Of a stretch of DNA of 64,000 bases, positions 6,001 to 63,096 are shown in pieces (position 1 is the stretch's first letter; each line of letters begins with the position of its first letter). The notes beneath the pieces are model-generated. The model worked only from the letters and a program-made list of their open reading frames with translations, did not search any database and was not told the origin of the DNA. Made by a program: the position numbers and the translations under genes. The stretch covers positions 248,001 through 312,000 of the forward strand of contig JAEKNX010000003.1 of the NCBI GenBank assembly GCA_016839055.1. Direction: 5' to 3'. The DNA comes from Spirochaetales bacterium. GTDB taxonomy: Bacteria; Spirochaetota; Spirochaetia; UBA9216.

Positions 6001-9000
6001 TTGCAATGTTAATATCATCCTGATTTGAAAGAAACTGTATACTATTTGCGGCAGTGCCGATTACATCTGCACTTATCAGCGTAATTGTTCCGGTAGTGCT
6101 CAGCTCGGCAAAAGCATTGTCCGCCTGGGCGGAGGAAATATCACCGGTTCCGGCTCGCAGCAATATACTCCCCGTACCACCGGTTGCAAAAGCAGTTCCG
6201 GCCCCGGCATCGTCAAGAACAATTCCTCCGCCGCCGACAATACTGTTTATTTCAATTGCCGCCGCCGCCACCGGGGAAGTTACCGTCTGAAGCGTAATCA
6301 GCCCGCTCTGAGAGAGGAATTCTCCGATTCTTATAGTTCCGGCACCTGTAACATTCACGATATCTGCATCCGAAAGCTGATAGGCACCAGCACCACCGCC
6401 TATTCCCATGGCTGTAGCAGCCGTAGTCGTGTAAAAGTTAAGATCCACTCCGGCAGAAATAACTCCAGAGAGGACAATATCATTTGATCTGATAGTTATG
6501 CTTCCGGTAGCAGCCGCGGCTGCAACATTAACAGAGTTTGCGTCGGTGACCGTTATTGTTGTCAGGGTTCCGCCGCTGAAAAAGCTTACCGCGCCGGTAA
6601 AATCATTAGTTATCCGGTCAAGAATGACTGTAGTCGTGTTCGGAGCAGTAAAACTTGAGGCGCCGTTAAAATCAAGATCGCCTGAATCTGTAATGTTTCC
6701 GCCGGCAGTTATATTACAAATTCCGGCAACAGTTGACGTACCCAAATCCAGGGCACCTGAGTTGACAATTGTAACATCATTCCCCCCGGAAATTACGGCG
6801 GAGACGACATCATTAACAGCTGAGTTCAGGTCTATATCACTACCTGCGCCGGATGTCACAGTGAGAACCTCACCGGTTACCCCGGCTCCGCTGTCCGATA
6901 CTGACCCGGCCGAGCTTAGCGTGACATCATTCGCCTGCCCGGCGCCACCGAGCACCTGGACAACGTCGATGTTGCCGGCGGTTGTAGTCAGCGTTATATC
7001 ATTAGCTTCGTTATTCGTGTTTGAGCTGTCAACGAGGGTGGCGGTTATCACTCCGCCGGCGGTTACTGTTATCGCGCCGTCAAAGGTATCTACCGCGGTT
7101 AAAGTCAGCGCTCCTGCTCCCCGGAGGTTCAAAGAACCAGCTAAAGTTGAGCTTGCATCGACATTACTTCCGGCTGCCAGATCAAGATAATCATCTACGA
7201 CGGCACCCCCGCCTGCGTCGATATTGCCCCAGGTAGTCATCGTTATAAGACCGCCTGCTGTTATATCTACATTTGTATCATCTGCCGTATCCTGAATATC
7301 ACCTGTACATGTGAGTGTTACAACATCGGCTGCAGTTATCGAGCCCACTAAAATAGAAAAACCCAGCCCGACTGCCGTAATAGAAACACTGTCTCCGGCG
7401 CCACCACCTGCACTTACATTGGTGACTGTAGTCTGCCCAGCTGTATTCACAGTTATTGCACCGTTATTCGTTGTAATGTTTGTCAGTGTTACAGCATTGG
7501 CCTCATCAATGCTGATGTTTCCGGCTCCGCTGGTTACTGCGGTTATACTCGCAGCGGCTGTATCAAGCGCCATGGCCCCCGCCGAACTTGCGTTTAGGGC
7601 ATTGCAGATAAATCCTGCACCTAAATTGGAAATGTTACCTGTTGACGCAACAGTTATATCACCCCCGACTGTCGCGGTTATCGTTCCGACGAGGAGGTTT
7701 CCAATTGAATCGATGTAAATATCGCTGCCATCTGCGGCAGCTGCATTAAAGGACGTTACTGCCGTCACATCAAGATGTGTGCCGACCTGGCCTATTCCGT
7801 TGGTATTTACTGTAAAGGCAAGCGTATTCCCGCTCACATCCGCAATCCCGTCGTCAGCGGCGCTTCTAAGCCAGGAACCGGTCGTTATCGATACATCGCC
7901 GTTTGCGGCAGTTACTGCAGTCACAGTCAATGAATTAAGCTCATCGATCACAATATTTCCTGCTGCTGATGTTGCAGCATCTATGCTTCCAACATCGGTA
8001 TCGAGTATCATTCCGCTTACAGCATCGGCGGTCAGGACATCACCTGTTATCCCCGCTCCGCTGTCGGTTATATCCACAGCTGAGGTCAGGGTGACATCAT
8101 TCGCCACACCGCCTGAGACCTGCCCCACATCAATGCTGCCGACTGTAGTTGTTAGACTTATACTGTTAGTACCATCATCGGTGTTTGAGCTGTCTACAAG
8201 TGTTGCAGTCATTGCGCCGCCCGCGGTTATCGTTATAGCGCCGTCAATGGTGTCAATATTTGTAAGCGTCACAGAATCAGCTTCATCTATATAGATGTCC
8301 CCGGAACCCGTGGTAGATGCGGTAATACTTGCAACATCTGTATTAAGCTCTGCATTAACTGCCGCGCCGCCTATTCCCGTTCCAGCTGTGAGGGTCAAGA
8401 TTGATGCGCTGCCAACGTCTCCAATCAAGGCTGAATTATCCGCCTCAGTGATGGTGCTTCCGGTTGCCGTTAGACTTATGGCCCGATCCCCGGTGGACTT
8501 AATCTCATCGACGGTAATACCGCCTGCGGCCGAAGAAGCTGTTATTGTACCGTTCACAGTCTGCAGGAGAGAATCTGCATCCATGACAATAGCATTCGAA
8601 GCAGTGAGGGTTATTGTACCGGCACCTGCAGAAGCAATAGTACCATTCACATTCAGCGCTCCGGCACCGGTTGTATCAACCGTGATATTACCGCCGGCAC
8701 TCGCGGCTGTTATTCCATTACTTAAGGTGAAAATCCCGCCGCTGTTTACATCTAATGTAGTTGTTGCAGTAATGTTTCCGCCAAGGGTAACACTCGTCGT
8801 CGCATCCTGAATATCAAGAGAGTTTACCGTAAGCGCGGCATACGACTGAATATTTCCATCGGTCACCGTCATATCTCCGCCGCCGGTCAAGGCTCCCGAT
8901 ATTGTAATGTTTCCGGCAGCCCCTCCGTCGAGGCCAAGATCATTTCCTACGGTCGCAATAGTGGAACTGAATAAAATATTCCCACCTCCGCTGTCAAGTG

Positions 9001-9946
9001 CAACATTGGAAGTAAGGTTAACCGCATTATTAAAAATTATATCCCCGCCGGTGGTAGTCAGCCCGAGGCCTATCCCAACCGGATTTCCGGTAAAGGTTAT
9101 ATCTCCGGCTCCGGCGTTGAAGGTTCCGGTACCGGATAGATCTCCGGCAATGGTCATAATACTGTTGGTTGTAAGAAAAGCACCTGCGCCTATTAACAGA
9201 TCATTAAAAATCGCGGCATCCTGAGGCTGCAGGTCTGTTCCCCCGGCAGAGACCTGTACATTGCCGAGATCCTCTCCGGTGGAGGTAAGAGTCTGCGGGG
9301 CGCCGGCATTAAAGATAACGGTTCCCGTTCCTTTACTATAATCACCAGGAAAAGTTGTATTCCCACCGATGGTCAGATTCCCATTACCGCTGAAATCTAG
9401 GGTACCGGCGACGGTGAGGGCATCACCTACGGTAATATTAAAAGTATCCGCATCGAAAGTCCCCGTAGAAACCCCTAGATCCCCGCTGATATCAAGATCA
9501 TTGGTTGCAACCGTAATGCTCCCGGCTGTGGGGTCTATTGTCAGACTGCCGATCTGAAGTGAGGCGTTTATAACGCTTCCCGCTTTGGTCATTACCAGCC
9601 CTATTGCAGTATCAAAACTCCCACCGGTGATAGTAACATTTCCATTTTCTACTCCCCCTCCGGAAACAGTTATCTTTTTAATGGGGAGACCGCCGCTATC
9701 CAGGATGTTTCCGGCTAAAAACTCAAGTTCGCCTACATCGGGATCGAAATTATTTAGGTCTACGGTTCGACCGGCTCGATTAATAGTAGCTTTATCACCC
9801 GCTCCGGGTACAGCAGCCGGTGTCCAGTTGCCGGGGACATTCCAATCTCCGTCAGCGTCATTCCAGGTATAATCCACCGCAAAAAGAGGCAATCCCGATA
9901 AGAGTAGTATTATGAATATGAGTAAGACTTTTCCTCTACCGCTCAA
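1..9946 (-). CDS. Giant secreted beta-helical adhesin-like protein, N-terminal part (runs off left edge)
   Basis: The minus strand is open from a TTG start at 9944-9946 to the window edge: 3,315 codons and no stop. GGAGG lies 7 bases before the TTG, and the start is followed by a signal peptide (LIFIILLLSGLPLFA, about residues 10-24). The mature protein opens with YTWNDADGDW and a W..P.NW.P...P..GD pattern, as in many autotransporter and adhesin passenger regions. The rest is a very long run of short Gly/Thr/Ala/Asp/Ile strand-turn units (for example ITITAGG, GNITVDTTG) with hardly any Cys, Trp or Lys. That is what a filamentous-haemagglutinin-type right-handed beta-helix looks like. Long-period repeats are visible: the segment at about 8000-8280 resembles that at about 6850-7130 (both contain TATLVDSSNT and a DSGAGxTG unit). 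The family, the ligand and the secretion route cannot be told, because the C-terminus is outside the window. Plus-strand open frames here are shadows. Confidence 0.85.
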   Translation of the reverse strand, partial: MSGRGKVLLIFIILLLSGLPLFAVDYTWNDADGDWNVPGNWTPAAVPGAGDKATINRAGRTVDLNNFDPDVGELEFLAGNILDSGGLPIKKITVSGGGVENGNVTITGGSFDTAIGLVMTKAGSVINASLQIGSLTIDPTAGSITVATNDLDISGDLGVSTGTFDADTFNITVGDALTVAGTLDFSGNGNLTIGGNTTFPGDYSKGTGTVIFNAGAPQTLTSTGEDLGNVQVSAGGTDLQPQDAAIFNDLLIGAGAFLTTNSIMTIAGDLSGTGTFNAGAGDITFTGNPVGIGLGLTTTGGDIIFNNAVNLTSNVALDSGGGNILFSSTIATVGNDLGLDGGAAGNITISGALTGGGDMTVTDGNIQSYAALTVNSLDIQDATTSVTLGGNITATTTLDVNSGGIFTLSNGITAASAGGNITVDTTGAGALNVNGTIASAGAGTITLTASNAIVMDADSLLQTVNGTITASSAAGGITVDEIKSTGDRAISLTATGSTITEADNSALIGDVGSASILTLTAGTGIGGAAVNAELNTDVASITASTTGSGDIYIDEADSVTLTNIDTIDGAITITAGGAMTATLVDSSNTDDGTNSISLTTTVGSIDVGQVSGGVANDVTLTSAVDITDSGAGITGDVLTADAVSGMILDTDVGSIDAATSAAGNIVIDELNSLTVTAVTAANGDVSITTGSWLRSAADDGIADVSGNTLAFTVNTNGIGQVGTHLDVTAVTSFNAAAADGSDIYIDSIGNLLVGTITATVGGDITVASTGNISNLGAGFICNALNASSAGAMALDTAAASITAVTSGAGNISIDEANAVTLTNITTNNGAITVNTAGQTTVTNVSAGGGAGDSVSITAVGLGFSILVGSITAADVVTLTCTGDIQDTADDTNVDITAGGLITMTTWGNIDAGGGAVVDDYLDLAAGSNVDASSTLAGSLNLRGAGALTLTAVDTFDGAITVTAGGVITATLVDSSNTNNEANDITLTTTAGNIDVVQVLGGAGQANDVTLSSAGSVSDSGAGVTGEVLTVTSGAGSDIDLNSAVNDVVSAVISGGNDVTIVNSGALDLGTSTVAGICNITAGGNITDSGDLDFNGASSFTAPNTTTVILDRITNDFTGAVSFFSGGTLTTITVTDANSVNVAAAAATGSITIRSNDIVLSGVISAGVDLNFYTTTAATAMGIGGGAGAYQLSDADIVNVTGAGTIRIGEFLSQSGLITLQTVTSPVAAAAIEINSIVGGGGIVLDDAGAGTAFATGGTGSILLRAGTGDISSAQADNAFAELSTTGTITLISADVIGTAANSIQFLSNQDDINIANTGAGNVFLDGLGNLTLATIDTNGGDLTVNTAGDIEIGSIDAGAGDAIINSAGNIDDAQVDAVLDIIASNINLDAADGIGETQPLELEAAAAIDADTTAAAASIVLNVSTAAFATLSSISTTGAGSNITIDSSGGGSLTVTSAITVDGQIDISSDNGNMTATTITAGGANNILLDTTTAGNIIVGTLTAAGDQVTINSVGSINDDGAGTPDITANIVDFDAATGIGNTNAIELSGVATITADNTGAAVINIDNDHTAAVTVNSLTTAGANITFDQTGVGGTLDIAGAVTSGGSDVTITSAEALTVNAVINTTPGVGGALSASGVALNVAPVLGGGNISITGSSPDTIIAIATASAQTITLTADQDILIRALLQTTAAAADIILNADSDADGSGGVRIEAAGQVDSFRHVSISGADLFNDGGAGNTTESVQVDNNGAANQIQAAGNITLGPSAAAAVGTDIDILGRITSTGGGTISITAQDDILLTTIDGDISSSGGNITFTADAAGGGTVGVVSMADGIIINAGAGTVTINADGDIALSSIQTVNNTAAAVSITSTNGAITDNGDTHQDIQATGALALVTLKAETGIGNGNSLETTITEINAINDTSGNIEISETGALSIAQVTQSTTGNISITAGGSITADSGGAPANVISTLLTGTVTLDANGVAADINLNDGISTAAGNITLTADNDVIFAADGDITSASGDVSVTADADNGGLNSGALTMVDGTVISSGSGDISLDADEDIILGRLVTTSAAITAVSVTSVSGAILDTADAAAIDIVATNAASDVTLSAATTIGVLGGNVLAAPTNAIEVDIRDLVLTGNATDIAIASTTSGVNSLEVDMAPGAGAAGDVLVTTDDDLRIGIWTLTAGDSFGLVSSGGNVTVPDAPINVGGGTIRIEAATAGQDVLDAGDTALNNNLWTAGNLVFSSGTGESLTTSIDTLTAAITGAGNNLTVNEAGGIDLVSLDVADGSIIINAAGAVTITDVATGTDADDNDITISTTAGNIEVDIITTTGAVPDADVTLTANTVAGQAVIDADADSTISCDLLDITARGDIGTGAVNRINTTVASLNLSSTNAGDIFIRETNAVVLSDIDAANGQINIIAGNSIDAVDVATLTNLDSNDITIRATVGNIDIDTVSAAGIGDVDIFTDTVGGQEVEDPDTDSLITADELRIVTTAGIGNLNRINTAVDSAALQTATGDIRIGNNTDLRVESIAGLAGVQITAGAAGDDIDIYAQGFLRLADEVSNTGGGDIILAADGSAVGNNLWVGNLPGGTVSAVGGNGAVFLYAGDTVAISEDVSASGTGTVLISAGTDYNQGGGLLNGNAAGAIIVADTYSVLSDDGNVTLRAPEDISLAFVSADGDSAGAVGNVTIEADYAGSVGGLSDNIGAVTDSSAAETANIYGNIISITGPSGIGAAAAGDIEITVDVTRFDADSSGGNGDVYVTTTGAMPIGFVDAGTGNVTLVSGGAVTDADGLADVLATTLSLTAAGAITVDTTVDNLNIQTTAAGLIDIAETDAVNIQNVIAANGDVDITTGGATVITSIVSSTDLEANDITVTASAGDIEIDTITTGGTASDVILQGTLGAIIDADGDSTITTQALSLTARDNIGVIGGANRIGTTSETIIANSTLDGDIALNETGAVTLTSVTTTDGAIEVLSGNTMTVTTVTSGDAGGDETHDVTLTVNPGNIVLGSVTADNEANLSADAGSITAIGPGLNITAVDLDLSAQVNIGDITGFAAETGDAVEVNISGTVKNVSTSAVGEIYLYQNGALALGAGALDIAGGNQGEAIIEATGSLNMGAAGAVALLGNDSLCLKSGGTLTLPNTITTGGDLRMTGVADVVDSGGTPRNIGFASGDLFFNSGAAGGNTTLTTSVATLTAHLTNAADLTVTETNGINLTDIDTSNGAITVTTAAGAVIATNVDSSATDDDSNDITITSVGGGITAGIINAGAVNDVTLVSGVAITDAAGKISADILTADASGAMTLNTTVASVN

Positions 9947-13737: not shown

Positions 13738-14250
13738 TCATGTCGAATTGATTACACCAGACCCGGTAAGCGTCGCGCCACCGACACTTATACTCAAGTT
13801 CCCGTCTACGACACTCAAGGCTCCGGTTCCGTTTACAGTCAAGACATTACCTGCTGTTATCGTTCCGGTTCCCGCGGCTGCTATGTTCCCTCCGGTGTTA
13901 ACCGTCAAGGCTCCCACAGTCGTAAAACTTCCGCCGGTAGCTACCGTTACCGCCTGGCTTACCACAGCTGAGTTTGCGCTGAAGGCATTAGCCCCGACAT
14001 TAATAGTTTCAGCAAAGGCAATTGTTGCGGTATCGTCGGCTCCATCAGGATAGCCATCATTCGTTGTTGTAGTATCATCGTACCAATTATTTTGAGCAGT
14101 CCACCTTCCTGCCGGACCGCCACCATCCCAGGTAAAATCATCAGCGAACACACCCCCGGCACAGACCATTAGCAGGGTTAAAATTGTGAGTATTTTTATA
14201 AATGTGCGAACTTTCCCTTTTACAGGCATATCAATAAAAATATACTTCAT
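13738..14250 (-). pseudogene. Truncated adhesin N-terminal stub
   Basis: 170 codons with a signal peptide (IKILTILTLLMVCAGGVFA) followed by DDFTWDGGGPAGRW and NNWYDD. This is the same W...W...NW opening as the giant adhesin at the left end, followed by about 100 residues of Gly/Thr/Ala beta-helix units (GALTVNTGGNI, GTITAGNVLTVNG). It stops after GSGVINST, 22 bases before the esterase remnant begins. The family is normally very large, so this looks like the surviving 5' end of a deleted adhesin gene. No convincing ribosome-binding site precedes the ATG, and an alternative ATG lies at 14229. It could still be expressed as a short secreted protein. Confidence 0.65.
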
Positions 14251-52718: not shown

Positions 52719-53408
52719 ATGTCTGGTGAAACAATACTGATAATTGAAGATGAACATGACATAAGGGAACTGATTTCCTACACTCTCGAAAATGAAGGCT
52801 ACAATATTCATAAAGCTGCCGACGGCCTAAGCGGAATTGCGAGTGCCCGTAAAAATAAACCTGATTTAATCCTTCTGGACATCATGCTTCCCGATATAGA
52901 CGGACTCGAAGTATGCAGGAAAATAAAACGGGATGAGAGCATCGGTGATGTTCCGATAATAATGTTAACCGCGAAATCTGAAGACTCAGATGTAATCTCC
53001 GGGCTTGAACTGGGCGCTGAGGATTATATAACCAAACCCTTCAGCCCGAGAGTTCTTGTAGCACGGCTACGGGCCGTGCTTCGAAGAAATATGGATCCGC
53101 AGGTAGATGATAACCAGAGAATCTCGGTTCATGATATTCAGATCGATATAAAAAAACATGAAGTCCTGAGTGAAGGAGAGACCATAGATCTCTCGGCCAC
53201 CGAATTTGCGATTCTCAGTCATCTGGCATCCAATCCAGGCTGGGTCTTTTCCCGCAATCAGATTATCGACGCCGTGAGAGGACAGGACTACCCTGTCACC
53301 GAACGGTCGGTTGACGTTCAGATTCTCGGAATAAGGAAGAAGCTCGGAACCCAGGGACTTTACGTTGAGACCGTCCGCGGCGTCGGATACAGGCTTAAAA
53401 GTGAGTAA
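52719..53408 (+). CDS. phoB: Phosphate regulon response regulator PhoB-like
   Basis: 229 residues. Receiver domain with acidic pair Glu10/Asp11, phospho-acceptor Asp54 (LILLDIMLPDIDG), the Thr in IIMLTAKSE and Lys in DYITKPFSP. It has an OmpR-type winged helix with LSATEFAILSHLASNPGWVFSRNQI, the recognition helix VTERSVDVQILGIRKKLG and the wing VETVRGVGYRL. GGAGG precedes the ATG. It is encoded between phoU and phoR. The likely targets are the Pho boxes before pstS and pstC. Confidence 0.92.
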   Translation: MSGETILIIEDEHDIRELISYTLENEGYNIHKAADGLSGIASARKNKPDLILLDIMLPDIDGLEVCRKIKRDESIGDVPIIMLTAKSEDSDVISGLELGAEDYITKPFSPRVLVARLRAVLRRNMDPQVDDNQRISVHDIQIDIKKHEVLSEGETIDLSATEFAILSHLASNPGWVFSRNQIIDAVRGQDYPVTERSVDVQILGIRKKLGTQGLYVETVRGVGYRLKSE

Positions 53409-53420
53409 CAAGGATAATAA

Positions 53421-55187
53421 ATGAAAAACCGACCCCTTCTGGCCAGAACCTTCTCGATTCTGATAGTTATAGTCCTGATAGCAATAGTTCCACTGACCCT
53501 TTTCAATATCAACAGCTTTAAAAAGTTCTTCTATCTGGAAACCGAATCATATCTTCAGGAAGACTGTTCAATACTGAAGAACCTTTTCCCGTCTGATATA
53601 GAACCGGAAAACCGGCAGGCTCTCAGGGACTTTACATTAAGAGCCGCAGAATCCACTAATCTCAGAATAACAATCATCCGTGAAGACGGGCAGGTTCTTG
53701 CCGACTCTCATAGTGAATCGGATGCTATGAACAACCACGCCGATAGACCCGAAATCATAGAGGCCCTCTCAGGCGGCTTCGGATCGGCGGTAAGAAACAG
53801 CGCGACAATGGCCTATGAGATGATGTACACAGCCGTGCGGCTGAATTTCGCGGACGGCAGCGTGGGAAGCCTCAGAATAGCACGCTCGCTATCAGATGTT
53901 CATGAAAATATCCGCAGCATAAGCCGCAGATCAATTCTAATCTGCATCATAATGCTCGCCATTGTCGGTTGGATAAGTTTAATTCTCGCAGGGAATGTCA
54001 GCCGGATCCTTTTGAAGATATCATCCGCCTCAAGACTTTATGCCTCAGGAAATTTCACGGAGAAGCTGGAGATTTCAAGACCCGCCGAGATTGCGGCGAT
54101 TGCCGATGATCTGAACCTAATGGGAAGACAGCTGAATGAGAGAATAGAAACAATCGAAGAACAGAAAAACGAACTTCAGCTTATGCTGAACAATATGACT
54201 GAAGCTGTCCTGTTTACCGACGAGGAGCTTCGTGTGCTGCGGATAAACGGAGCCGCGGAGAAGCTTTTTAATATCGAAGGAAAAAATCAGCAAGGCAAGA
54301 GTATCCTGGAAATCTTCAGGAACTCACATCTGAACGATTTTGCCGAAAAACTTCTTTCCAAGCGAAAATCAAGAGTAGAAGAAATATCACTGGATCTGCC
54401 AAAACCCGTCATTCTTGAGGTAAGCGGAACAGTCCTATACGATTCCACCGGAGAAAATATAAACTCAGTACTGCTGGTAATGCACGATATAACCAGAACC
54501 AAGCAGCTTGAGCAAATGCGAAAGGATTTCGTCGCCAATGTTTCTCATGAACTCAAGACTCCTGTAACCCTCATAAAAGGATATATTGAAACTCTTCTTG
54601 ACTGCCCGGCCGGAGCGCCGGATAAATCAAGGGAGTTCCTTCAGATAATGGAGAAACATTCCCTCAGAATTGAGGCGATTATTAACGATCTTCTCACTCT
54701 TTCAGGCATAGAGAAGGGCGGCTCTGAAGAACTTACGCTGGAAAAAATTCCGGCAATAGATCTCATCACAAGCGCCGCATCAAGCTGCCGGGGCGGAGCC
54801 GACGAGAAGAAAATAACAATATCCATCGACTGCGATGAAAGCATTATGATGAACATCTATCCGCTGATGGCCGAACAGGCTTTGATAAATCTGATAGACA
54901 ATGCAGTAAAATACAGCGGTACCGGCACTAAAATAATAATTAAGGCAGAATCAGCACCTGACGGAAAAACCTGCCTGAGGGTAAAAGATCAGGGCTGCGG
55001 TATTTCTCCCGAACATCAGGATAGAATATTTGAAAGATTTTACCGGGTCGACAAAGATAGAAGCACGAACTCAGGCGGTACGGGCCTTGGCCTTTCAATA
55101 GTGAGGCATATCGCCTTAAGCCACAACGGGACAATTAACGTAGAAAGCAGGCCAGGTAAGGGCGCGGAATTCATTCTATGCATATAG
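53421..55187 (+). CDS. phoR: Phosphate regulon sensor kinase PhoR-like
   Basis: 588 residues. TM1 (about 10-30), an extracytoplasmic sensor of about 135 residues with the PhoR-like HADRPEIIEALSGGFGSAVR, TM2 (171-191), HAMP, and a PAS domain from about 250 (NMTEAVLFTDEELRVLRING). HisKA follows, with VSHELKTPVTLIKGY (phosphorylated His376), then the ATPase with N-box LINLIDNAVKY, DQGCGI, FERFYRVDKDRS and GGTGLGLSIVRH. The 12-base gap after phoB and the same operon support the PhoBR pairing. A terminator follows at once, inside the convergent sulfotransferase gene. Confidence 0.92.
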   Translation: MKNRPLLARTFSILIVIVLIAIVPLTLFNINSFKKFFYLETESYLQEDCSILKNLFPSDIEPENRQALRDFTLRAAESTNLRITIIREDGQVLADSHSESDAMNNHADRPEIIEALSGGFGSAVRNSATMAYEMMYTAVRLNFADGSVGSLRIARSLSDVHENIRSISRRSILICIIMLAIVGWISLILAGNVSRILLKISSASRLYASGNFTEKLEISRPAEIAAIADDLNLMGRQLNERIETIEEQKNELQLMLNNMTEAVLFTDEELRVLRINGAAEKLFNIEGKNQQGKSILEIFRNSHLNDFAEKLLSKRKSRVEEISLDLPKPVILEVSGTVLYDSTGENINSVLLVMHDITRTKQLEQMRKDFVANVSHELKTPVTLIKGYIETLLDCPAGAPDKSREFLQIMEKHSLRIEAIINDLLTLSGIEKGGSEELTLEKIPAIDLITSAASSCRGGADEKKITISIDCDESIMMNIYPLMAEQALINLIDNAVKYSGTGTKIIIKAESAPDGKTCLRVKDQGCGISPEHQDRIFERFYRVDKDRSTNSGGTGLGLSIVRHIALSHNGTINVESRPGKGAEFILCI

Positions 55188-55200
55188 GCATAGAATGCTG

Positions 55201-56139
55201 TCAGGCTGAGGCTCCAGAGAGCTTCAGCTTTTTTTTCCACAAAGCTTCATTACCATAGCCAAACTCCTTCATAAAGGCGCCGCAGTGCCTGTCCATCATC
55301 TCAACAAGAGGACTCCCCCATTCTTCCCATTTCGGAACCATCCTCTTGCTCGCGGCCGCATGTATTTTAATATCAAGAAGTTCCGGACGATAACTGAAAT
55401 CTCTACTGAAGCCATCCTCAAAGGTAGTAGCATATCTAAGCATATCGAGAAAATACTCATCCCTTATTTCATTATTAAAAAGATCCTCATAGCGGTAAAC
55501 CCTGAAATTCGGCACCCTTTCCATCAGTTCAAAAGCCCTCGAATTAACACTGTTGTAATACCAGCAGTATTTCTCAAATTTTGACATGGCGTTCCATCTT
55601 CCGGCCGAGGCGTCGCCGGGGAAATTATATGCCCGGACACTCAGGTTGAGCGAATTCCAGTCGAAGGGACCATAGAGATGAAAAGCAGTCGCGTTGATAG
55701 CGCTCCTTATCCAGGTTCGGGGATCCCGCATTATCCAGATGATCTTTGAGTTCGGAAAAACCTCGGCAATCAGATCAAGCAGCCCATAGATGATGTGGTT
55801 TGATTCAATATAGAGCCCCTTTCGGAAACTGTTTATATATTCCCTCCGGTTATCAATTATATAACCTTTTGCCTTCTCATCGCCGCAGAGGTTGCGTTGC
55901 CTGGTAGTAGTTAGCTTTCCCAGGCTGTAGCACTGACGATACTGTCCCCAGAGCATTTTGGGGACACCGAACCTGGCCATCTTGCTTATCCAGTCCGCCC
56001 AATTGGACACACGGGTGGTATCTGGTTCATGAACCGAGACGCAGTCGCCTATCATACGCGACATAGTCTCACCAAAAAACTTGGTTCCGGTTCTCCCTGT
56101 CGAGCTTAAAAAAACACAGTGCTTCTGGCTGCAAGTCAT
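55201..56139 (-). CDS. PAPS-dependent sulfotransferase family protein
   Basis: 312 residues. The 5'-phosphosulfate-binding loop is LSSTGRTGTKFF (residues 11-22), and the 3'-phosphate-binding motif lies in WIMRDPRTWIRSAINA. This is the common layout of the P-loop sulfotransferase superfamily. There is no signal peptide or membrane helix, so it should act in the cytosol or at the membrane face. It transfers sulfate from PAPS to an unknown acceptor, such as a glycan, lipid or small molecule. It is the last gene of the cysC-cysD-cysN-cysQ unit, which makes PAPS and clears PAP. Its 3' end also encodes the phoR terminator on the opposite strand. Confidence 0.85.
   Translation of the reverse strand: MTCSQKHCVFLSSTGRTGTKFFGETMSRMIGDCVSVHEPDTTRVSNWADWISKMARFGVPKMLWGQYRQCYSLGKLTTTRQRNLCGDEKAKGYIIDNRREYINSFRKGLYIESNHIIYGLLDLIAEVFPNSKIIWIMRDPRTWIRSAINATAFHLYGPFDWNSLNLSVRAYNFPGDASAGRWNAMSKFEKYCWYYNSVNSRAFELMERVPNFRVYRYEDLFNNEIRDEYFLDMLRYATTFEDGFSRDFSYRPELLDIKIHAAASKRMVPKWEEWGSPLVEMMDRHCGAFMKEFGYGNEALWKKKLKLSGASA
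55205..55236 (+). terminator. Rho-independent terminator of the pst-pho operon, inside the sulfotransferase 3' end
   Basis: On the plus strand GCTGAgGCTC (55205-55214) pairs with GAGCtTCAGC (55219-55228) around CAGA, followed by eight T (55229-55236). It begins 17 bases after the phoR stop and lies within the last codons of the convergent sulfotransferase. Confidence 0.88.
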
Positions 56140-56166
56140 CTTCCGGATTCTCCTACTGTAAACAAA

Positions 56167-56973
56167 TCAGGATACAATAAAGCCGTCATTTCTCATTACA
56201 GGCTTGTTATAAATCAGTCTTCCGCCGTCAGGCCGGGTACATTTTTTACCGGCGCCTTCGACTATCGCATGCGCGGCTGCAGTGTCCCACTCCATGGTGG
56301 GGCCGAAACGGGGACACACATCCACCTTTCCCTCGGCGGCGAGACAGAGCTTGAGACTGCTGCCCGCTGTCAGTACTTCTACCCTGCTGCAGCCTCTTCT
56401 TTTTGCCTCGCTTTCGACCCAGAGGTCAAAGTCCGGAGTTCGATGTGACCTGCTTCCTGCCGCAACGAGAATATCCGGGTTCCGTCCGGTCTTAATCGGA
56501 AGAATTTCGGCATATGAAAGAGCGCAATCCCTTCCGCTGGCCTTATAAGCCCCGAGACCGGCTCCTCCATAATAGATCTTATCCTTAACCGGAAGATAAA
56601 CAATGCCGAGAATCGGTTTGTTTCCGCTGATGATTGCTATATTAACAGTAAATTCACCGTTTCGGCTTATAAATTCTTTTGTACCGTCTAGAGGATCGAT
56701 CAACCAGTAACGCTCCCAGTGCTTCCGCTCTTCAAAGGCAATATCATCTCCTTCTTCCGACAAAACGGGGATGAGCGCGCCGTCGAACTCAAGAACCTCC
56801 AGAGCTTCGGAGATGATGTCATGGGCGGCCCGGTCGGCGTCAGTGACAGGACTGTCGTCCTCTTTCATATCGAAATCAAAATTTCCGGAATAAATTTTCA
56901 TTATTTCATCTCCGGCTCTGACCGATATTTCCGCGAGCTGCTGAAACAGCCTTTTATAATCTTTATCTACCAT
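56167..56973 (-). CDS. cysQ: 3'(2'),5'-bisphosphate nucleotidase CysQ
   Basis: 268 residues. It hydrolyses PAP, the by-product of sulfotransferases, to AMP. Inositol-monophosphatase superfamily motifs: [15 protein letters not shown], the metal-binding Glu of [32 protein letters not shown] (read in parts), and the C-terminal [15 protein letters not shown]. It overlaps the upstream cysN by 7 bases and precedes the sulfotransferase by 27, so it is translated in the same unit. Confidence 0.92.
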
Positions 56974-58748
56974 GGTTTAAACAGGTACCCCTTTTCAAGA
57001 AGATAACTCTTGATTTTCATCGCTGCAGTTTCGGGATTTTCTCCCTCAAGCTGCATGTTCCACTGTATGTCGGTATTCGCCGGACCTATCTGAACAATCT
57101 CTACATTTCCGCTGCCGACAACTGTCTGCAGTTCTTCGAGATCTTCCTGAGTAAGATCTATCGCGGTCAGGATAAGAATAAGTCCGGCACTAAGCATAAG
57201 ATGCGATATTTCCCCAATCATCCGCGCGGGCCTCAGCCCAAAACGGTCCTGCTCCTTCTTGAATTCCGAAGCAATACCATAGAGAATACTCCCAATTCCA
57301 ACAAAATTCACAATATGTCCGTCCTCGAACAGCAGATTCTCCAGACCACGCGCAATTGCCTTCTTGCCGCTGTCCTTGCTCCCGGTAACCACAATCAGGG
57401 CCGGCCGCTGATTGTATTTTTCAGCACGCCGTTCGATGCTTATCTCACTTCTCGCCCAATTGAAATTCCGCTCCCATACGTGTTCACGGGTAGCTTCATG
57501 AGAATCATCGAGTGATTCCTTGATAATGCCTCCGCCGGAAATTTCATAATCATCAACGATGACAAATCGGCTCGTAGACGGATTATCTTCAACAATATCA
57601 AAGGCGGCCGCCTTTTCCAGTTTCAGCACACATTCGGCAACCTCATGACGTTTCACTTCAGACGCCACCTCAGAATCCAGGGTTGATGCATCAATGAGCC
57701 GGATTATCTCTTCGAGTCTTACATTGATCCTGCCGGTTCCGAGTTTAAACAGATAACTGCGGTCTTTTACCATCGGAGATCTTCCAAGCCAGAACAGGGC
57801 AACCCTGATCCTTGACGAGACAAAAGGCTCAGGTTGGCCTTCGGCAGTTGCAAGTTCTCCCCGTCTGATATAAATCTGCTCCTCAAGGGTAAAGCCTGCG
57901 GCCTGCCCGGCACTCAGCCGTTCAGGTACGCCGCCGTTGAAAGCCTCGATAGTGTTAATCCTGCTCCGTTTGCCGGAAGGATAAAAAACCAGCTTCTGAC
58001 TCGCTTCAATTGTTCCGCTTTCAATTGTTCCGGCGACAATTCTTCTGTCGTCTCCGTCACCGGTGAATTTATAGACATCCTGAACCGGTATTCGCAGTGG
58101 AAGGTTCTCTAGAGACTCTTCCTTCCTGAATGAATCAAGGCCTTCGAGAACAGTCATGCCCCGATACCAGCTTATCTCGGAATAATTTTCTATAATGTTT
58201 GCACCCTTTGCCGCACTAATCGGGATGAACCCCGAAGGCTCAAGCTCGATTGATTTCAGAAAATCACTGTACTCGCCCACTATTCTGCGGTACACAGCCT
58301 CATTCCAACCGACAAGATCCATCTTGTTCACGAGTACTATCATCTGTTTTATACCCAGCATCGAAAGCAAGAATCCGTGCCGCCTCGAGTTCTCCCTTAC
58401 TCCCTCTTTGGCGTCAATCACGAGAAAGGCCGCCTCGGCACGAGATGCTCCCGTTACCATATTCTTGAGAAATTCAATATGCCCCGGAGCATCAATGATT
58501 ATATAATTCCGTTTACCGGTATTAAAGAAGACCCTTGCCGAATCTATGGTAATGCCCTGAGCCTGCTCGTCTTTTAGAGCGTCAATCAGAAAAGCATATT
58601 CAAAGGGCCTGGAATTACTAAGACAGTTCTTCCTGACCTGCTCGAGTTTACCCATCGGAAGGGAGCCTGTATCGGCAAGCAGTCGTCCGATCACCGTACT
58701 CTTACCATGATCAACATGTCCCGTAAAGACAATATTCATCTGTTCCAT
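56967..58748 (-). CDS. cysN: Sulfate adenylyltransferase subunit 1 (CysN) with degenerate APS-kinase-like tail
   Basis: 593 residues. GTPase domain: [15 protein letters not shown] (G1), DAPGHIEF (G3), VNKMDL (G4). Beta-barrel domains follow to about 430. Together with CysD it makes APS from ATP and sulfate. The last 146 residues (from about 448) look like an APS kinase fused as in CysNC/NodQ. However, its P-loop reads GSKDSGKK (456-463), with Lys in place of the needed Ser/Thr, and the region matching DGDNIRxGL has become [10 protein letters not shown]. It is therefore probably inactive as a kinase. A separate, intact cysC is in the same operon. It precedes cysD's stop by 1 base and overlaps cysQ by 7. 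Confidence 0.9.
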
Positions 58749-58749
58749 C

Positions 58750-59631
58750 TCACATATACCCTCCCCGTCTCAGGGTTTCCAAACTGCCTCCGTCATCCTT
58801 GTCCTGGGCCCGTCCGGAACGTTCGGCCACATTTTCAAGCGCTCCGGATCTCAGCTCACGAATAATTTCATCCACTGTTTTCGATTCGGATTTTATTGGG
58901 AAAGTGCAGGGATAGCAGCCGAGCGAACGGTAGCGCCGGCCGTTCCCCTGGTTATAATAGAGAGAGACGGTCGGTATATTTTCCTTTTTTATGTATTCCC
59001 AGATATTCAATTCAGTCCAGTCAAGAAGAGGATGGATTCTAAGGTGTGTTCCAGGAGCAAAATCGGTCTTGAACTGGTTCCAGAACTCCGGGGGCTGAGC
59101 CCCGACATCCCAGGTGTTTTCAGTGTCTCTCGGAGAAAAACACCTCTCCTTCGACCTGCTGCCCTCCTCATCCGAGCGGGCACCGACAATTACACCGGTA
59201 TAAGCTTCCTTGTCCTGATCCTCATCCCATTGTCCGGTGGAATGATTCAGCCTATACCGAGAACCCTTGCCGCTGAGGGTGTCTCTGAGAGCATCGGTTT
59301 TAAGTCTCCGGCAGCAATTTATCCGGTCAAGCTGCCCATCGGGGAAGGTCTGGTTCGACTTAAGAGCCGCTTCATTCTGACCATAAATCATGGTGAGCTT
59401 CCATTCCATTGCCAGAGCATCGCGGTATTTAATCATTTCTGGAATCTTGTAGGAGGTATCTATATGCACCAGCGGAAACGGAACATGACCGAAAAACGCT
59501 TTACGCGCGAGCCACAATAGCACAGTGCTGTCTTTCCCGATTGACCACAACATGCAGAGGTTTTTGAAATTTGCATATGCCTCCCGCAGAATGAAAACAC
59601 TTTTACTCTCGAGTTGTACCAAATGGTTCAT
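58750..59631 (-). CDS. cysD: Sulfate adenylyltransferase subunit 2
   Basis: 293 residues from the ATG at 59631, which has AAGGAA upstream and gives the usual CysD start ([18 protein letters not shown]); a longer frame to 59661 is less likely. The PP-loop [17 protein letters not shown] is at residues 30-46. [17 protein letters not shown] and the C-terminal [13 protein letters not shown] and LRRGGYM are standard. It forms APS with CysN. The start lies inside cysC's last codons, a 29-base overlap. Confidence 0.94.
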
Positions 59632-60226
59632 TGATAATTTCCTTATTTGAAAGAAATACAATAATCTTGTCTACACATTCATCGATGCTGAATTTTTCCG
59701 AATCAAGGATGATTTCCGGCCTTAAGGGAGGCTGATAGGGCGAGCTAATTCCGGTAAAGTCTGCAATATCTCCCCCTCTTGCACGGCGGTACAGCCTCTT
59801 CACGTCCCGCTTCTCGCAGCAGGCAAGAGAACATTTAACCCATATTTCTATGAAATTATCCGGCCCCATGAGCTTCCTGATGTGATCCCGGTCTTTCCGA
59901 AACGGACTTATTAACGCGGCCATTGTAATTACTCCGGCGTCAGCAAACAGATGACCCACTTCTCCTGTTCTGCGGATATTCTCGTGCCTGTCATCGAGAC
60001 TGAATCCCAGATCACTACTTAGACCACCGCGTATGTTGTCGCCGTCGAGGATATAGGTTCTGATACTATTATTAAAAAGCCTTGAATCGAGAGCCCTGGC
60101 AATTGTTGATTTACCTGAACCGGACAGGCCTGTAAACCAGAGTAGAGCAGCCTTGTGACCGTTCAGCTCTGCCCTCATTGTTTTAGTGATATTAAAACTC
60201 TCCGGAAACAGATTATTATCAGCCAT
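59603..60226 (-). CDS. cysC: Adenylylsulfate (APS) kinase
   Basis: 207 residues. It phosphorylates APS to PAPS. Intact P-loop [34 protein letters not shown], the conserved [22 protein letters not shown] and [11 protein letters not shown]. All the active-site motifs missing from the kinase-like tail of cysN are present here, so this is the working enzyme. It is the first gene of the sulfation operon and overlaps cysD by 29 bases. Confidence 0.94.
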
Positions 60227-60237
60227 AATGAGCCTTT

Positions 60238-60266
60238 AATATACAATGATAATAAGCTGAAATCAA
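60238..60266 (-). promoter_or_regulatory. Candidate promoter of the sulfation operon
   Basis: On the minus strand TTGATT (60261-60266), a 17-base spacer and TATATT (60238-60243). The match is good, but the -10 box ends only 11 bases before the cysC ATG, so transcription would start inside or after the Shine-Dalgarno-like AAAGG. Either the mRNA is nearly leaderless or the match is chance in AT-rich DNA. Confidence 0.35.
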
Positions 60267-60302
60267 AAATTAAAAAGTTTTTTGATCATTTTTTTTTCAT
60301 AT

Positions 60303-60339
60303 AGCTTCTTTCAAAACTCGATTTGTTTTGAAAGAAGCT
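60303..60339. repeat. Perfect 15-bp inverted repeat (hairpin)
   Basis: AGCTTCTTTCAAAAC (60303-60317) and GTTTTGAAAGAAGCT (60325-60339) flank a 7-base loop, 13 bases after the stop of the small protein gene at 60353. In the minus direction it is followed by A-rich and not T-rich sequence, so it is not a classical terminator for that gene. Confidence 0.75.
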
Positions 60340-60352
60340 TTTACGGAAATTC

Positions 60353-60709
60353 TTAATCATCAAGACTCATATACCTGGTTATCTTCTCCAGTTTGCGGTT
60401 TACCAGCAAAAAGACTATATTCGGAAGTCCGGCAGCCTTGATTTCCTTGGCAAAATATACTGCCAGAAGGGTTTTAAGCTCCTCGATGGTCCTCTTTTCT
60501 GTTCCGGCAGCCGCAACCACTTTTCTTAACTTTTCAATACCGAGTACTTCTTTTTTCAGTAAGCCAATGTTTTCTTTAAAAACATACTCAGTGATTTCCT
60601 GCTTTTCAAGACGTTTCAGCAGAACCTCTTCACCGAATTCCAGGTCGATAATCAAGTCTTCTAATTCTATCATCAATATTTCAAGATATTTTCGAGCCTT
60701 ATTGTCCAT
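60353..60709 (-). CDS. Small helical protein of unknown function
   Basis: 118 residues, all-helical by composition. The N-terminal half is strongly acidic/Leu-rich and coiled-coil-like (LEILMIELEDLIIDLEFGEE, then EKQEITEYVFKENIGLLKKE). The C-terminal half is basic (VVAAAGTEKRTIEELK, VNRKLEKITRYMS). GGAGA-like sequence precedes the ATG. No signal peptide, Cys or recognised domain. It is close to the divergent secreted HExxH gene and 127 bases from cysC in the same direction. Function unknown. Confidence 0.7.
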   Translation of the reverse strand: MDNKARKYLEILMIELEDLIIDLEFGEEVLLKRLEKQEITEYVFKENIGLLKKEVLGIEKLRKVVAAAGTEKRTIEELKTLLAVYFAKEIKAAGLPNIVFLLVNRKLEKITRYMSLDD

Positions 60710-60774
60710 TACTATTCTCCTGTTTGAATTATATAAACCCTTTTAATAGAATGCAAGAAATGTTAGTCTCAGAT

Positions 60775-62049
60775 ATGCAAAGAGTGTTTTTTCTGACTGC
60801 TTTTATGATTATTTTATCAATACCAGGCCTTTCAGCAGTCGATTCCGCATCCCGGAGCCTTATAGAAACGGGACGGATAATCATACTGAGACATGAAAAT
60901 GAGGCGGTTCTGCTTATTGAGCAGTCTCAGCCTGCCGGCAGGCAGTCGGGAATTGAAATAAGTCTGTCAGGCATGGGAACATTACGCCTTCAAGCCGGCC
61001 TGCGGACTGAGACAATCAAATTCTCGATCGGCGAAATCCGGGAGAATATCAACATCTACGCCGGCACTGCCGGATTCTTTCCCGAAAAAATAACCATCAC
61101 CGGCACTGGTAATGGTTTTGACCTTTTGTCGGCGCATACCTACCAGGCCGGAGACGCGCTTACTCCGCTGCCTGCGGATATCGGACATATAATCTTCTCG
61201 GACTTCAGCTCAGACGGAAATACCGAATGGGAACTTTACAGCTGGAACCTTTTCCCGGAAGTCCTGATTTTTGATACCGTCGATTATGAAGTTCAGTCGC
61301 GCCTATTTAAAAGACTGGCATTCTTCGTGGAAAAACCCGGATTCGTCGGCACTCTTGTTCCGAATAAAGATCTGAACGGCAGACACGGCTGGAACGCGCA
61401 TGACTACAAGGCCGACGACCTGGCCGCCTTCTTTACAAAGGCTGAAGCTGAGAATTTCACCCTCAACCCGGAAGAACTGGTCTTAAAACAGATCCTCATA
61501 AACTGCGGCATAATCATCGGAAACAGCGGTACGGAAATGAAGACCTTTTCCGCCGGAGAAGGCGCTGTCCTGTCCGTCTCAAGAGAAACCCTTCCCGACT
61601 GGAGATACAGATTCCTTACCCATGAATGTCTTCACGGCATATTCTTCACGAAATCTGACTACCGGGAAGAAATTGAAAAGGTGTTTACCTCGCTCGATTC
61701 CGAAGAAGTTGAGTTCTGGAAGCATCTCCTCGATTATCGCCGATATGATGTTAATAATTCATATCTTGTGGTTAATGAGTTCATGGCTTACAGCTTGCAG
61801 CAGCCGAAAGATGAAACCGACGATTACTTCAAGGGTTTTCTCTATAAGAAAATGATCGCCGCCCGGCCTTATGAAAAAGGATTTGTAGAAAAATTCGAGA
61901 AGACCCATTCAGATTCTTTCCGGCGGGCCGTTTCCAGTCTTGGACTTGTTCTGTTAAGCTATACAGGCCGGGAACCAGGACATCTGGCAAACCTGTATCC
62001 GCAAGATCTATCTCCGTCATTTTTCAACCTTTTCCCAGCCTCAGAATAA
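60775..62049 (+). CDS. Secreted protein with HExxH metallopeptidase-like motif
   Basis: 424 residues from the ATG at 60775, chosen to give a normal signal peptide (QRVFFLTAFMIILSIPGLSA). In-frame starts at 60760, 60751 (ATG) and 60724 (TTG) are possible and none has a good Shine-Dalgarno. The N-terminal 130 or so residues are beta-rich. The C-terminal half contains THECLHGIFF, an HExxH zinc motif, and about 55 residues later VVNEFMAYSLQQ, where Glu could be the third ligand as in gluzincins. No named family is recognised. It follows a bidirectional gap from the helical protein gene. Confidence 0.72.
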   Translation: MQRVFFLTAFMIILSIPGLSAVDSASRSLIETGRIIILRHENEAVLLIEQSQPAGRQSGIEISLSGMGTLRLQAGLRTETIKFSIGEIRENINIYAGTAGFFPEKITITGTGNGFDLLSAHTYQAGDALTPLPADIGHIIFSDFSSDGNTEWELYSWNLFPEVLIFDTVDYEVQSRLFKRLAFFVEKPGFVGTLVPNKDLNGRHGWNAHDYKADDLAAFFTKAEAENFTLNPEELVLKQILINCGIIIGNSGTEMKTFSAGEGAVLSVSRETLPDWRYRFLTHECLHGIFFTKSDYREEIEKVFTSLDSEEVEFWKHLLDYRRYDVNNSYLVVNEFMAYSLQQPKDETDDYFKGFLYKKMIAARPYEKGFVEKFEKTHSDSFRRAVSSLGLVLLSYTGREPGHLANLYPQDLSPSFFNLFPASE

Positions 62050-62151
62050 TCCCCATGGCTGTCAGATAAGATTTTTGCAGCTTCAATTTGCTATTGATCA
62101 TTCAGGTAAATATAATTATGGTTATGACAACATCCTCAGGAGCGCATTAAG

Positions 62152-63096
62152 ATGTCGATCAACAGGAAATGGATTTCTGCAAGGAAATCTCATCTCCATT
62201 TTTACAATGAAATACCTCTATATTACCGGACCCCGTCAGGAAATATAGCACTCTATAAACCGGCCGGAATGTCGTTCTCCAGTGAAAGCCTAGAGCGGAA
62301 ATATTCAATAGATGAATACTTCATTCATCCTGACAACCGCCTCGAAAGCATAGATGCCGCTCAGAATGGTTTCAATTCCGAACTGAGGCAGAAAATCTCG
62401 GAAGAAAATATTGCCGATGTAAAAACCTCTCTGGTCGATCTTATTGAAGAAACCCTTTCGGCGCCTCGCGGAGGCGGACTCAGCAGGTCACCGCAGACTG
62501 TAAATCAGATGATAGACGGATTTGCACTGAAACCAACGATAATGAAAAATTTCGCGAAAATTTCCTTCAATGATTACACTACCGCTCTTCATTCCGTAAA
62601 TGTGATGGCTCTGACGATAGGCTACTGTTATTATGCGGCCCTTTCTGAAAACGAGACGAAGCAGCTAGGGCTATCCGCCCTCCTTCATGATGTCGGTAAA
62701 ACTGAAATTCCACCCTACATTCTTAAGGCATCAAGAAAGCTCTCTGATGAAGAATTTGAGAAGGTTAAAGAGCATACGACCCTGGGCTTCGAGATGCTCA
62801 ATCTTTACCAGGAAGAAGAAATCAAGAATGCGGCCATGGCAAGTATTGAACACCATGAAAAACTTGACGGATCAGGTTATCCTACAGGCAAGACGGACAT
62901 TTCATACTCGGGAAGAGTCCTTGCCATCATCGACTGCTATGAGGCAATAACGAATGATGACAGACCCTACCGAACGGCTCTCAGCCCGATAAACGCGCTT
63001 GAACTGCTTAAAAAAGATGTTGATCAGGGCAAACTCGACAAAGAAATATTCCGTAATTTTGCCTACAGCTTGACCAATTTCAGGAAAGGTCTATAG
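62152..63096 (+). CDS. HD-GYP domain protein (putative cyclic-di-GMP phosphodiesterase)
   Basis: 314 residues. The N-terminal 140 residues are not recognised. The HD-GYP domain (about 150-310) has LLHDVGKTEIP (HD pair), the KEHTTLGFEML His, and EHHEKLDGSGYPTGK, the full HHExxDGxGYP motif, then IIDCYEAITNDDRPYR. Enzymes of this type linearise cyclic di-GMP. There is no membrane segment, so it is cytosolic. AGGAG lies 9 bases before the ATG. Confidence 0.9.
   Translation: MSINRKWISARKSHLHFYNEIPLYYRTPSGNIALYKPAGMSFSSESLERKYSIDEYFIHPDNRLESIDAAQNGFNSELRQKISEENIADVKTSLVDLIEETLSAPRGGGLSRSPQTVNQMIDGFALKPTIMKNFAKISFNDYTTALHSVNVMALTIGYCYYAALSENETKQLGLSALLHDVGKTEIPPYILKASRKLSDEEFEKVKEHTTLGFEMLNLYQEEEIKNAAMASIEHHEKLDGSGYPTGKTDISYSGRVLAIIDCYEAITNDDRPYRTALSPINALELLKKDVDQGKLDKEIFRNFAYSLTNFRKGL

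Follow-up and report, generated by a model that had tools for sequence, protein, structure and literature searches.

The NodPQ/NodH system of rhizobia combines CysD, CysN, and an adenosine 5'-phosphosulfate (APS) kinase to feed one sulfotransferase, and the APS kinase fused to NodQ is the working one. To our knowledge, how bacteria control the supply of 3'-phosphoadenosine 5'-phosphosulfate (PAPS) is poorly understood except in a few models. In the available portion of its description, the CysD/CysNC system of Mycobacterium tuberculosis forms a complex that activates sulfate where the reduction and sulfation routes diverge, and the domain fused to its CysN (residues 424–614) is an active APS kinase (PMC4373884). 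Filamentous fungal ATP sulfurylase carries a C-terminal allosteric domain with the APS kinase fold and no kinase activity, in which the P-loop Ser/Thr is replaced and the DGDN motif is altered (1i2d, 1m8p; accessible parts of PMC13213808 and PMC3779200). Here, we analyzed a 64,000-nucleotide stretch of contig JAEKNX010000003.1 from a Spirochaetales bacterium (the window), in which cysC, cysD, cysN, cysQ, and a sulfotransferase gene form a cluster. This cluster probably supplies PAPS to a single sulfotransferase, with nothing reduced, and its CysN bears a putative regulatory or docking pseudo-kinase. The sulfation cassette itself is of a known kind; the new part is the conserved pseudo-APS-kinase domain on CysN.

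The five genes occupy the minus strand (60226–55201), with cysC first, followed by cysD, cysN, cysQ, and the sulfotransferase gene. As the first-pass annotation had proposed, they run in one direction with overlaps or short gaps, and both the family matches and the coordinates agree with that layout. CysC matched APS_kinase (PF01583; 200.6 bits) and TIGR00455 (232.9 bits), both above the curated cut-offs, and aligned with the plant APS kinase 3uie (phmmer E 1.1e-53). CysD scored 346 bits against NF003587 (cut-off 195), and CysQ scored 254.7 bits against TIGR01331 (cut-off 228.8). CysN belongs to a divergent, EF-1-alpha-like type, with 324.9 bits against TIGR02034, slightly below the cut-off of 336.1; its GTPase motif GHVDHGKST is intact, and the pairing of CysD with this GTPase is that of a NodPQ/CysNC-type PAPS synthase. 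We infer the four enzyme activities from these established families. CysD and CysN would join sulfate and ATP into APS while hydrolyzing GTP, and the separate CysC would phosphorylate APS to PAPS. The sulfotransferase would then transfer sulfate from PAPS to an acceptor, while CysQ would clear the inhibitory by-product 3'-phosphoadenosine 5'-phosphate (PAP). The second, non-catalytic APS kinase domain of CysN would serve as a regulatory or docking part of a CysDN–CysC complex, either by sensing a sulfonucleotide or anion or by pairing with the dimer-forming CysC.

Profile searches of the host genome (5,008,763 bases in 43 contigs, 97% complete, an assembly that may miss genes) detected no cysH with PF01507 and no sulfite reductase with PF01077. 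PF01507 covers both CysD and CysH, and its single match in the whole genome was the cluster's own CysD. PF01077, which comprises sulfite and nitrite reductases, also found nothing in the six further genomes from the order (0/7 with the host included); in the control genomes, PF01507 matched 14/14 and PF01077 matched 11/14. These results bear out the earlier claim that PAPS reductase and sulfite reductase are missing, and neither cysH nor cysI is present in the genome to be co-regulated with the cluster. The two sulfotransferase families searched gave one match to PF13469, the cluster's own sulfotransferase, and none to PF00685. Since no reductive genes and only a single sulfotransferase were found, PAPS would have no detectable reductive use and one candidate consumer.

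The sulfotransferase passed the PF13469 (Sulfotransfer_3) cut-off narrowly (30.8 versus 27 bits), with the best stretch confined to residues 118–155. It contains STGRTGTKFF (residues 13–22) and RDPRTWIRSA (138–147), which we take to be the 5' and 3' PAPS-binding motifs. Both are unchanged in the three orthologues, except for K/Q at position 20 and I/V at 144, a pattern consistent with the PAPS binding on which the first-pass annotation had depended. The structure model, built from three sequences, is weak (predicted local distance difference test score, pLDDT, 54.8); its best PDB matches were sulfotransferases (E 1e-4, template modeling score about 0.4).

The proposal of a product sulfated in the manner of NodPQ/NodH was supported, with corrections. 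CysD, CysN, and an APS kinase serve one sulfotransferase in both cases, and the outcome would be a sulfated product, not cysteine. The construction differs from that of NodPQ: the fused kinase is dead by motif, CysC is separate, cysQ stands in the same gene run, and there are no Nod genes. Judged against the available portion of PMC4373884, the cluster resembles the M. tuberculosis complex in having CysN fused to a CysC domain, and differs from it in that the fused domain is inactive by motif and no reduction branch accompanies it.

Roughly the last 165 residues of CysN constitute a degenerate APS kinase domain, which the first-pass annotation had not mentioned. Residues 415–593 align with APS kinase, and the profile APS_kinase matched with 26.4 bits at residues 449–551. 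In the alignments, its P-loop reads GSKDSGKK, DGDN is changed to GIGS, and the entire lid is gone. Judged by these motifs, the domain is catalytically dead. An AlphaFold model of the domain (pLDDT 86.9, from 65 alignment rows) had its best matches among APS kinases of plants, fungi, and humans (Foldseek E 2e-10). It superimposed on 4fxp with Z 20.0 (156 residues, 2.7 Å) and on the allosteric domain of fungal ATP sulfurylase with Z 15.7 (1m8p) and 15.5 (1i2d). In this model, the domain adopts an APS kinase fold without the ATP-site motif. The N-terminal arm RNxKW...R...YNQK, which plant and fungal APS kinases share, is well conserved.

The domain is widespread. In a phylum sample of 392 genomes, 75 had a CysN match at 1e-60, and 27 of the best 30 loci, the window counted, extend into the domain. 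A scan of species genomes confirmed 447 CysN relatives, with full-length relatives at 43–59% identity in many phyla. The best 80 of the 447, kept as loci, represent Calditrichota, Gemmatimonadota, Acidobacteriota, Planctomycetota, Bacillota (Halanaerobium, Clostridium), Ignavibacteriota/Chlorobiota, Myxococcota, Thermotogota, Sumerlaeota, and Neomarinimicrobiota, among others. In the pooled set of 112 rows (104 distinct sequences), the domain is present in 101 distinct CysN proteins and missing in L059–L061. The canonical Walker A sequence GK[ST] occurs in none of these 101 domains, versus 50/51 of the separate CysC proteins neighboring the 80 loci.

A distinct set of residues has taken the place of the catalytic motifs. 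On the window's side of the family, a CysC-linked clade, the position of the Mg-binding Ser/Thr is Lys in 82/82 distinct sequences, preceded by Lys in 61 and Arg in 21; this Lys occurs in 0/19 of the deeper Spirochaetota sequences. The DGDN position is GIGN, GIGS, GIAN, or GISN in 78/101. Across 20 pairs, the identity of the domain was usually close to that of CysN domains 2–3 (92 versus 91%, 74 versus 75%, and 90 versus 85%), with exceptions in which it was less conserved (L042/L045, 54 versus 73%; host, 36–46% versus 56–60%). From these comparisons, the domain does not appear to be simply drifting. As a separate observation, four loci (L092, L093, L125, and L133) encode an APS-kinase-like P-loop protein of 239–240 residues (GIPxSGKT or GLSRSGKS) near cysD, besides a normal CysC.

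We compared genomic contexts within stretches of up to 20 kb around 31 Spirochaetota CysN loci. Two CysH and two sulfite reductases were confirmed by Pfam, and the rest were assigned by phmmer to those. CysC occurs with neither CysH nor sulfite reductase in nine loci; CysH and/or sulfite reductase occurs without CysC in the other 22, three of which have a CysN lacking the domain. An intact APS kinase was found anywhere in the genome in 6/6 tested genomes of the CysC type and in 2/18 (G081 and G139) cysteine-type Spirochaetota with the domain. One genome (G103) has two dead-domain CysN proteins with differing P-loop remnants: a Lys-type protein beside CysC (L063) and another without a P-loop near sulfite reductase (L075). 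The Lys signature goes with CysC and, in Spirochaetota, separates CysC loci from cysteine-making loci. The two contexts imply that the dead domain is independent of its use in sulfation. Near the cysH-cysD-cysN genes of another locus, a 903-residue protein joins JAB, sulfite reductase, and TusA domains (L072:3932–6640).

In the wider set, the flanks of the 80 loci, many on short contigs, contained CysC in 51, CysH in one (L117), and sulfite-reductase-like genes in five. For gene content at the genome level, we took 37 of the 80 loci (36 genomes, hand-chosen over groups) and nine Spirochaetota genomes. PF13469 matched 38 of these 45 genomes with this CysN type versus 2/14 controls. PF01077 matched 15 of 49 genomes, a set that includes four added genomes without this CysN, none of which matched; all 15 are among the 45, leaving 30/45 without PF01077.

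Several observations weigh against a dedicated sulfation line governed by a regulatory or docking domain. The host domain is more diverged than most (42% identity to the congener G003 and 46% to L097) and lacks the RR and D of a conserved helix. What we take to be the sulfonucleotide-binding residues of the fungal allosteric domain are mostly lost in CysN, and a fungal-type PAPS site is therefore not supported. The domain persists in 16/18 cysteine-type Spirochaetota genomes without any intact APS kinase, and docking CysC is thus not its only or original role. Three Clostridium genomes combine this CysN with CysC and sulfite reductase and have no PF13469 match; the module therefore does not serve sulfation exclusively. 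Because the Lys-type sequences form essentially a single clade, the signature counts as one evolutionary event. In addition, assembly gaps may hide genes.

Nevertheless, the domain is most likely regulatory or docking in its putative role, and not a remnant. Sensing and docking may both hold, and we consider it fairly probable that one or both do. An allosteric sulfonucleotide sensor, throttling CysDN when PAPS or APS builds up as in filamentous fungal ATP sulfurylase, is a possible role. The fold is common to 1m8p and 1i2d (Z about 15.6), and the fungal domain has likewise lost the P-loop Ser/Thr (GKD) and DGDN (LGDT). The accessible parts of PMC3779200 and PMC13213808 provide a functional precedent in fungi. 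The domain is also kept where no APS kinase exists, and APS would be the product to sense there. However, the fungal domain keeps the APS-binding residues (VRxxL...GFxxxDR...N) and the lid, which are mostly lost here. It also resides on a Sat-type ATP sulfurylase, unlike the domain described here, which resides on the GTPase CysN; the different host protein suggests that the dead domain probably had a separate origin.

Alternatively, the domain could act as a docking half. It would then form a pair with the separate, dimer-forming CysC and recruit it to CysDN for direct transfer of APS. We regard this, too, as possible. The Lys signature tracks CysC loci, the arm of plant and fungal APS kinases is retained, and APS kinase domains dimerize according to the available part of PMC13213808; the genomes that keep the domain with no intact APS kinase count against it. 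It is improbable that the domain is a functionless, decaying leftover of a CysN–CysC fusion. The loss of the catalytic motifs and lid, the CysN proteins of L059–L061 without the domain, and faster divergence in some lineages (L042/L045, 54% versus 73–85%) would fit such decay. On the other hand, the domain is retained in nearly all distinct sequences, has acquired new invariant residues (the signature Lys and, in most, a GIGN-type motif), and diverges in most pairs at about the rate of CysN domains 2–3.

Taking regulation or docking as the preferred role, we tentatively propose, with less than even confidence, a class of GTPase-borne pseudo-APS-kinases in about ten phyla, marked by Lys for the Mg-binding Ser/Thr and GIGN for DGDN. 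Its members would sense a sulfonucleotide or anion, dock CysC, and set the output of PAPS for sulfation, as an independent bacterial counterpart of the fungal allosteric domain. We found no description of a CysN bearing a degenerate APS kinase domain in the literature searched, which left out most subscription journals and is thus weak evidence of absence; archaeal CysN is described without such a domain in the available part of PMC6286981. A conserved dead kinase on CysN that occurs alongside a separate CysC, and for the most part where sulfite reductase is lacking, marks this kind of sulfate activation at the sequence level and offers a clean case for testing whether a pseudo-enzyme regulates it. 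Such a CysN can be mistaken for a bifunctional CysNC, and genomes may consequently be credited with an APS kinase that they lack.

The acceptor of the sulfotransferase is not guessable from its relatives. At E 1e-8, relatives among the 392 genomes of the phylum sample were limited to the host and G003, with that of a second congener (G005) found by another search. None were detected by tblastn in 72,556 plasmid and 50,697 phage records, and none in viral contigs. A profile search of the PDB returned only SgdX2 (E 0.4), and local profile searching within the fetched loci yielded only distant Sulfotransfer_3 proteins (E 4e-4 and weaker). In the sulfated capsule clusters of marine bacteria, sulfotransferases likewise stand with cys genes for sulfated polysaccharide (available parts of PMC11641403 and PMC11766843), but no glycan genes adjoin the window's cassette. 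Glycosyltransferases neighbor CysN in three of six Spirochaetota loci (L063, L065, and L067), and their adjacency favors glycans as the acceptor in those three.

The sulfotransferase gene is convergent with phoR, whose end lies 14 nucleotides away, and the same neighbors occur in G003. This adjacency could suggest a phosphate-starvation response, in which a sulfated lipid replaces phospholipid. We judge this very improbable: the two convergent genes do not form one unit, and in G005 the sulfotransferase gene is directly beside pyrG with no pst-pho block. The least credible alternative, that the sulfate activated by the cluster goes into cysteine, with reduction genes elsewhere or missing from the assembly, accords with the part of cysCDN in beginning assimilation and with domain-bearing CysN in the cysH/sulfite reductase loci of other Spirochaetota, but is opposed by CysD being the sole PF01507 match, by the lack of PF01077 matches across the order, and by the sulfotransferase and cysQ in the same gene run.

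The five genes do not travel as a unit. The first-pass annotation had looked to synteny in relatives for support, and the unit proved to be split in two congeners, with the sulfotransferase–cysQ pair apart from cysCDN. Among the seven genomes of the order, sulfotransferase orthologues occur in G003 (71% identity) and G005 (68%), each flanked by cysQ and an open reading frame of 118 residues; cysC-cysD-cysN is located separately in both (G003:C11 and G005:C134). In a further genome (G004), cysQ-cysD is accompanied by a true CysNC fusion, and the sulfotransferase has no orthologue. Sulfotransferase and cysQ are adjacent in three of five genomes of the genus, and these three share the order pyrG-sulfotransferase-cysQ-118-residue open reading frame, where the neighbor is presumably pyrG, named from its sequence. 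A pst-phoU-phoB-phoR block lies between pyrG and the sulfotransferase gene in the host (G000) and G003 only, and is missing there in G005. The five-gene arrangement is particular to the host genome; the function is kept in three genomes although the layout varies. We also considered a horizontal origin of the host cysCDN. A quick tree set its CysN apart from those of G003 and G005, but in a careful tree a single clade was not rejected (approximately unbiased test, p 0.43), and we make no such claim.

Table 1. Features of the sulfation cluster and its upstream region, in window coordinates.
Feature	Coordinates	Strand	Evidence and remarks
cysC, separate APS kinase, 207 aa	59603..60226	-	intact P-loop GLSGSGKST and lid; PF01583, TIGR00455
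cysD, ATP sulfurylase catalytic subunit, 293 aa	58750..59631	-	ATG start; mechanical TTG start at 59661; NF003587
cysN, GTPase subunit of ATP sulfurylase, 593 aa, with C-terminal pseudo-APS-kinase domain	56967..58748	-	GTP_EFTU 149.9 bits
Pseudo-APS-kinase domain of CysN, residues 415-593	56970..57506	-	alignments, AlphaFold model, Lys at the Ser/Thr position
cysQ, PAP 3'-phosphatase, 268 aa	56167..56973	-	TIGR01331
PAPS-type sulfotransferase, 312 aa	55201..56139	-	PF13469; own-genome searches
118-aa open reading frame, no known family	60353..60709	-	upstream of cysC here; adjoins cysQ in two congeners
Perfect 15-bp inverted repeat	60303..60339	n/a	between the 118-aa open reading frame and cysC

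For cysD, the ATG at 59631 is the likeliest start and was preferred over the TTG at 59661, because the resulting 293 residues match the usual length in relatives. With this start, cysC and cysD overlap by 29 nucleotides and cysD and cysN are separated by one; cysN and cysQ overlap by seven, and 27 separate cysQ from the sulfotransferase gene.

The 118-residue open reading frame shares 56–61% identity with its orthologues in G003 and G005 and had no match in Pfam or NCBIfam; three members of the genus retain it next to cysQ or cysC. The inverted repeat, in the leader of cysC, could be either a terminator of this open reading frame or an operator. The cysC leader folds better than 200/200 shuffles (z −4.1), and no known RNA family reached the gathering threshold in 53000–63000. 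A promoter-like site follows the inverted repeat (60266–60238); it is weak evidence, since 14 such sites occur in 6 kb versus 8.4 expected.

Elsewhere in the window, a minus-strand open reading frame of at least 3315 residues (1–9946) continues past the window edge and has a TWxxx(G)-type motif after a signal-like stretch. A 170-residue open reading frame (13738–14250) has the same TWxxx(G)-type start, and both resemble large secreted repeat proteins.

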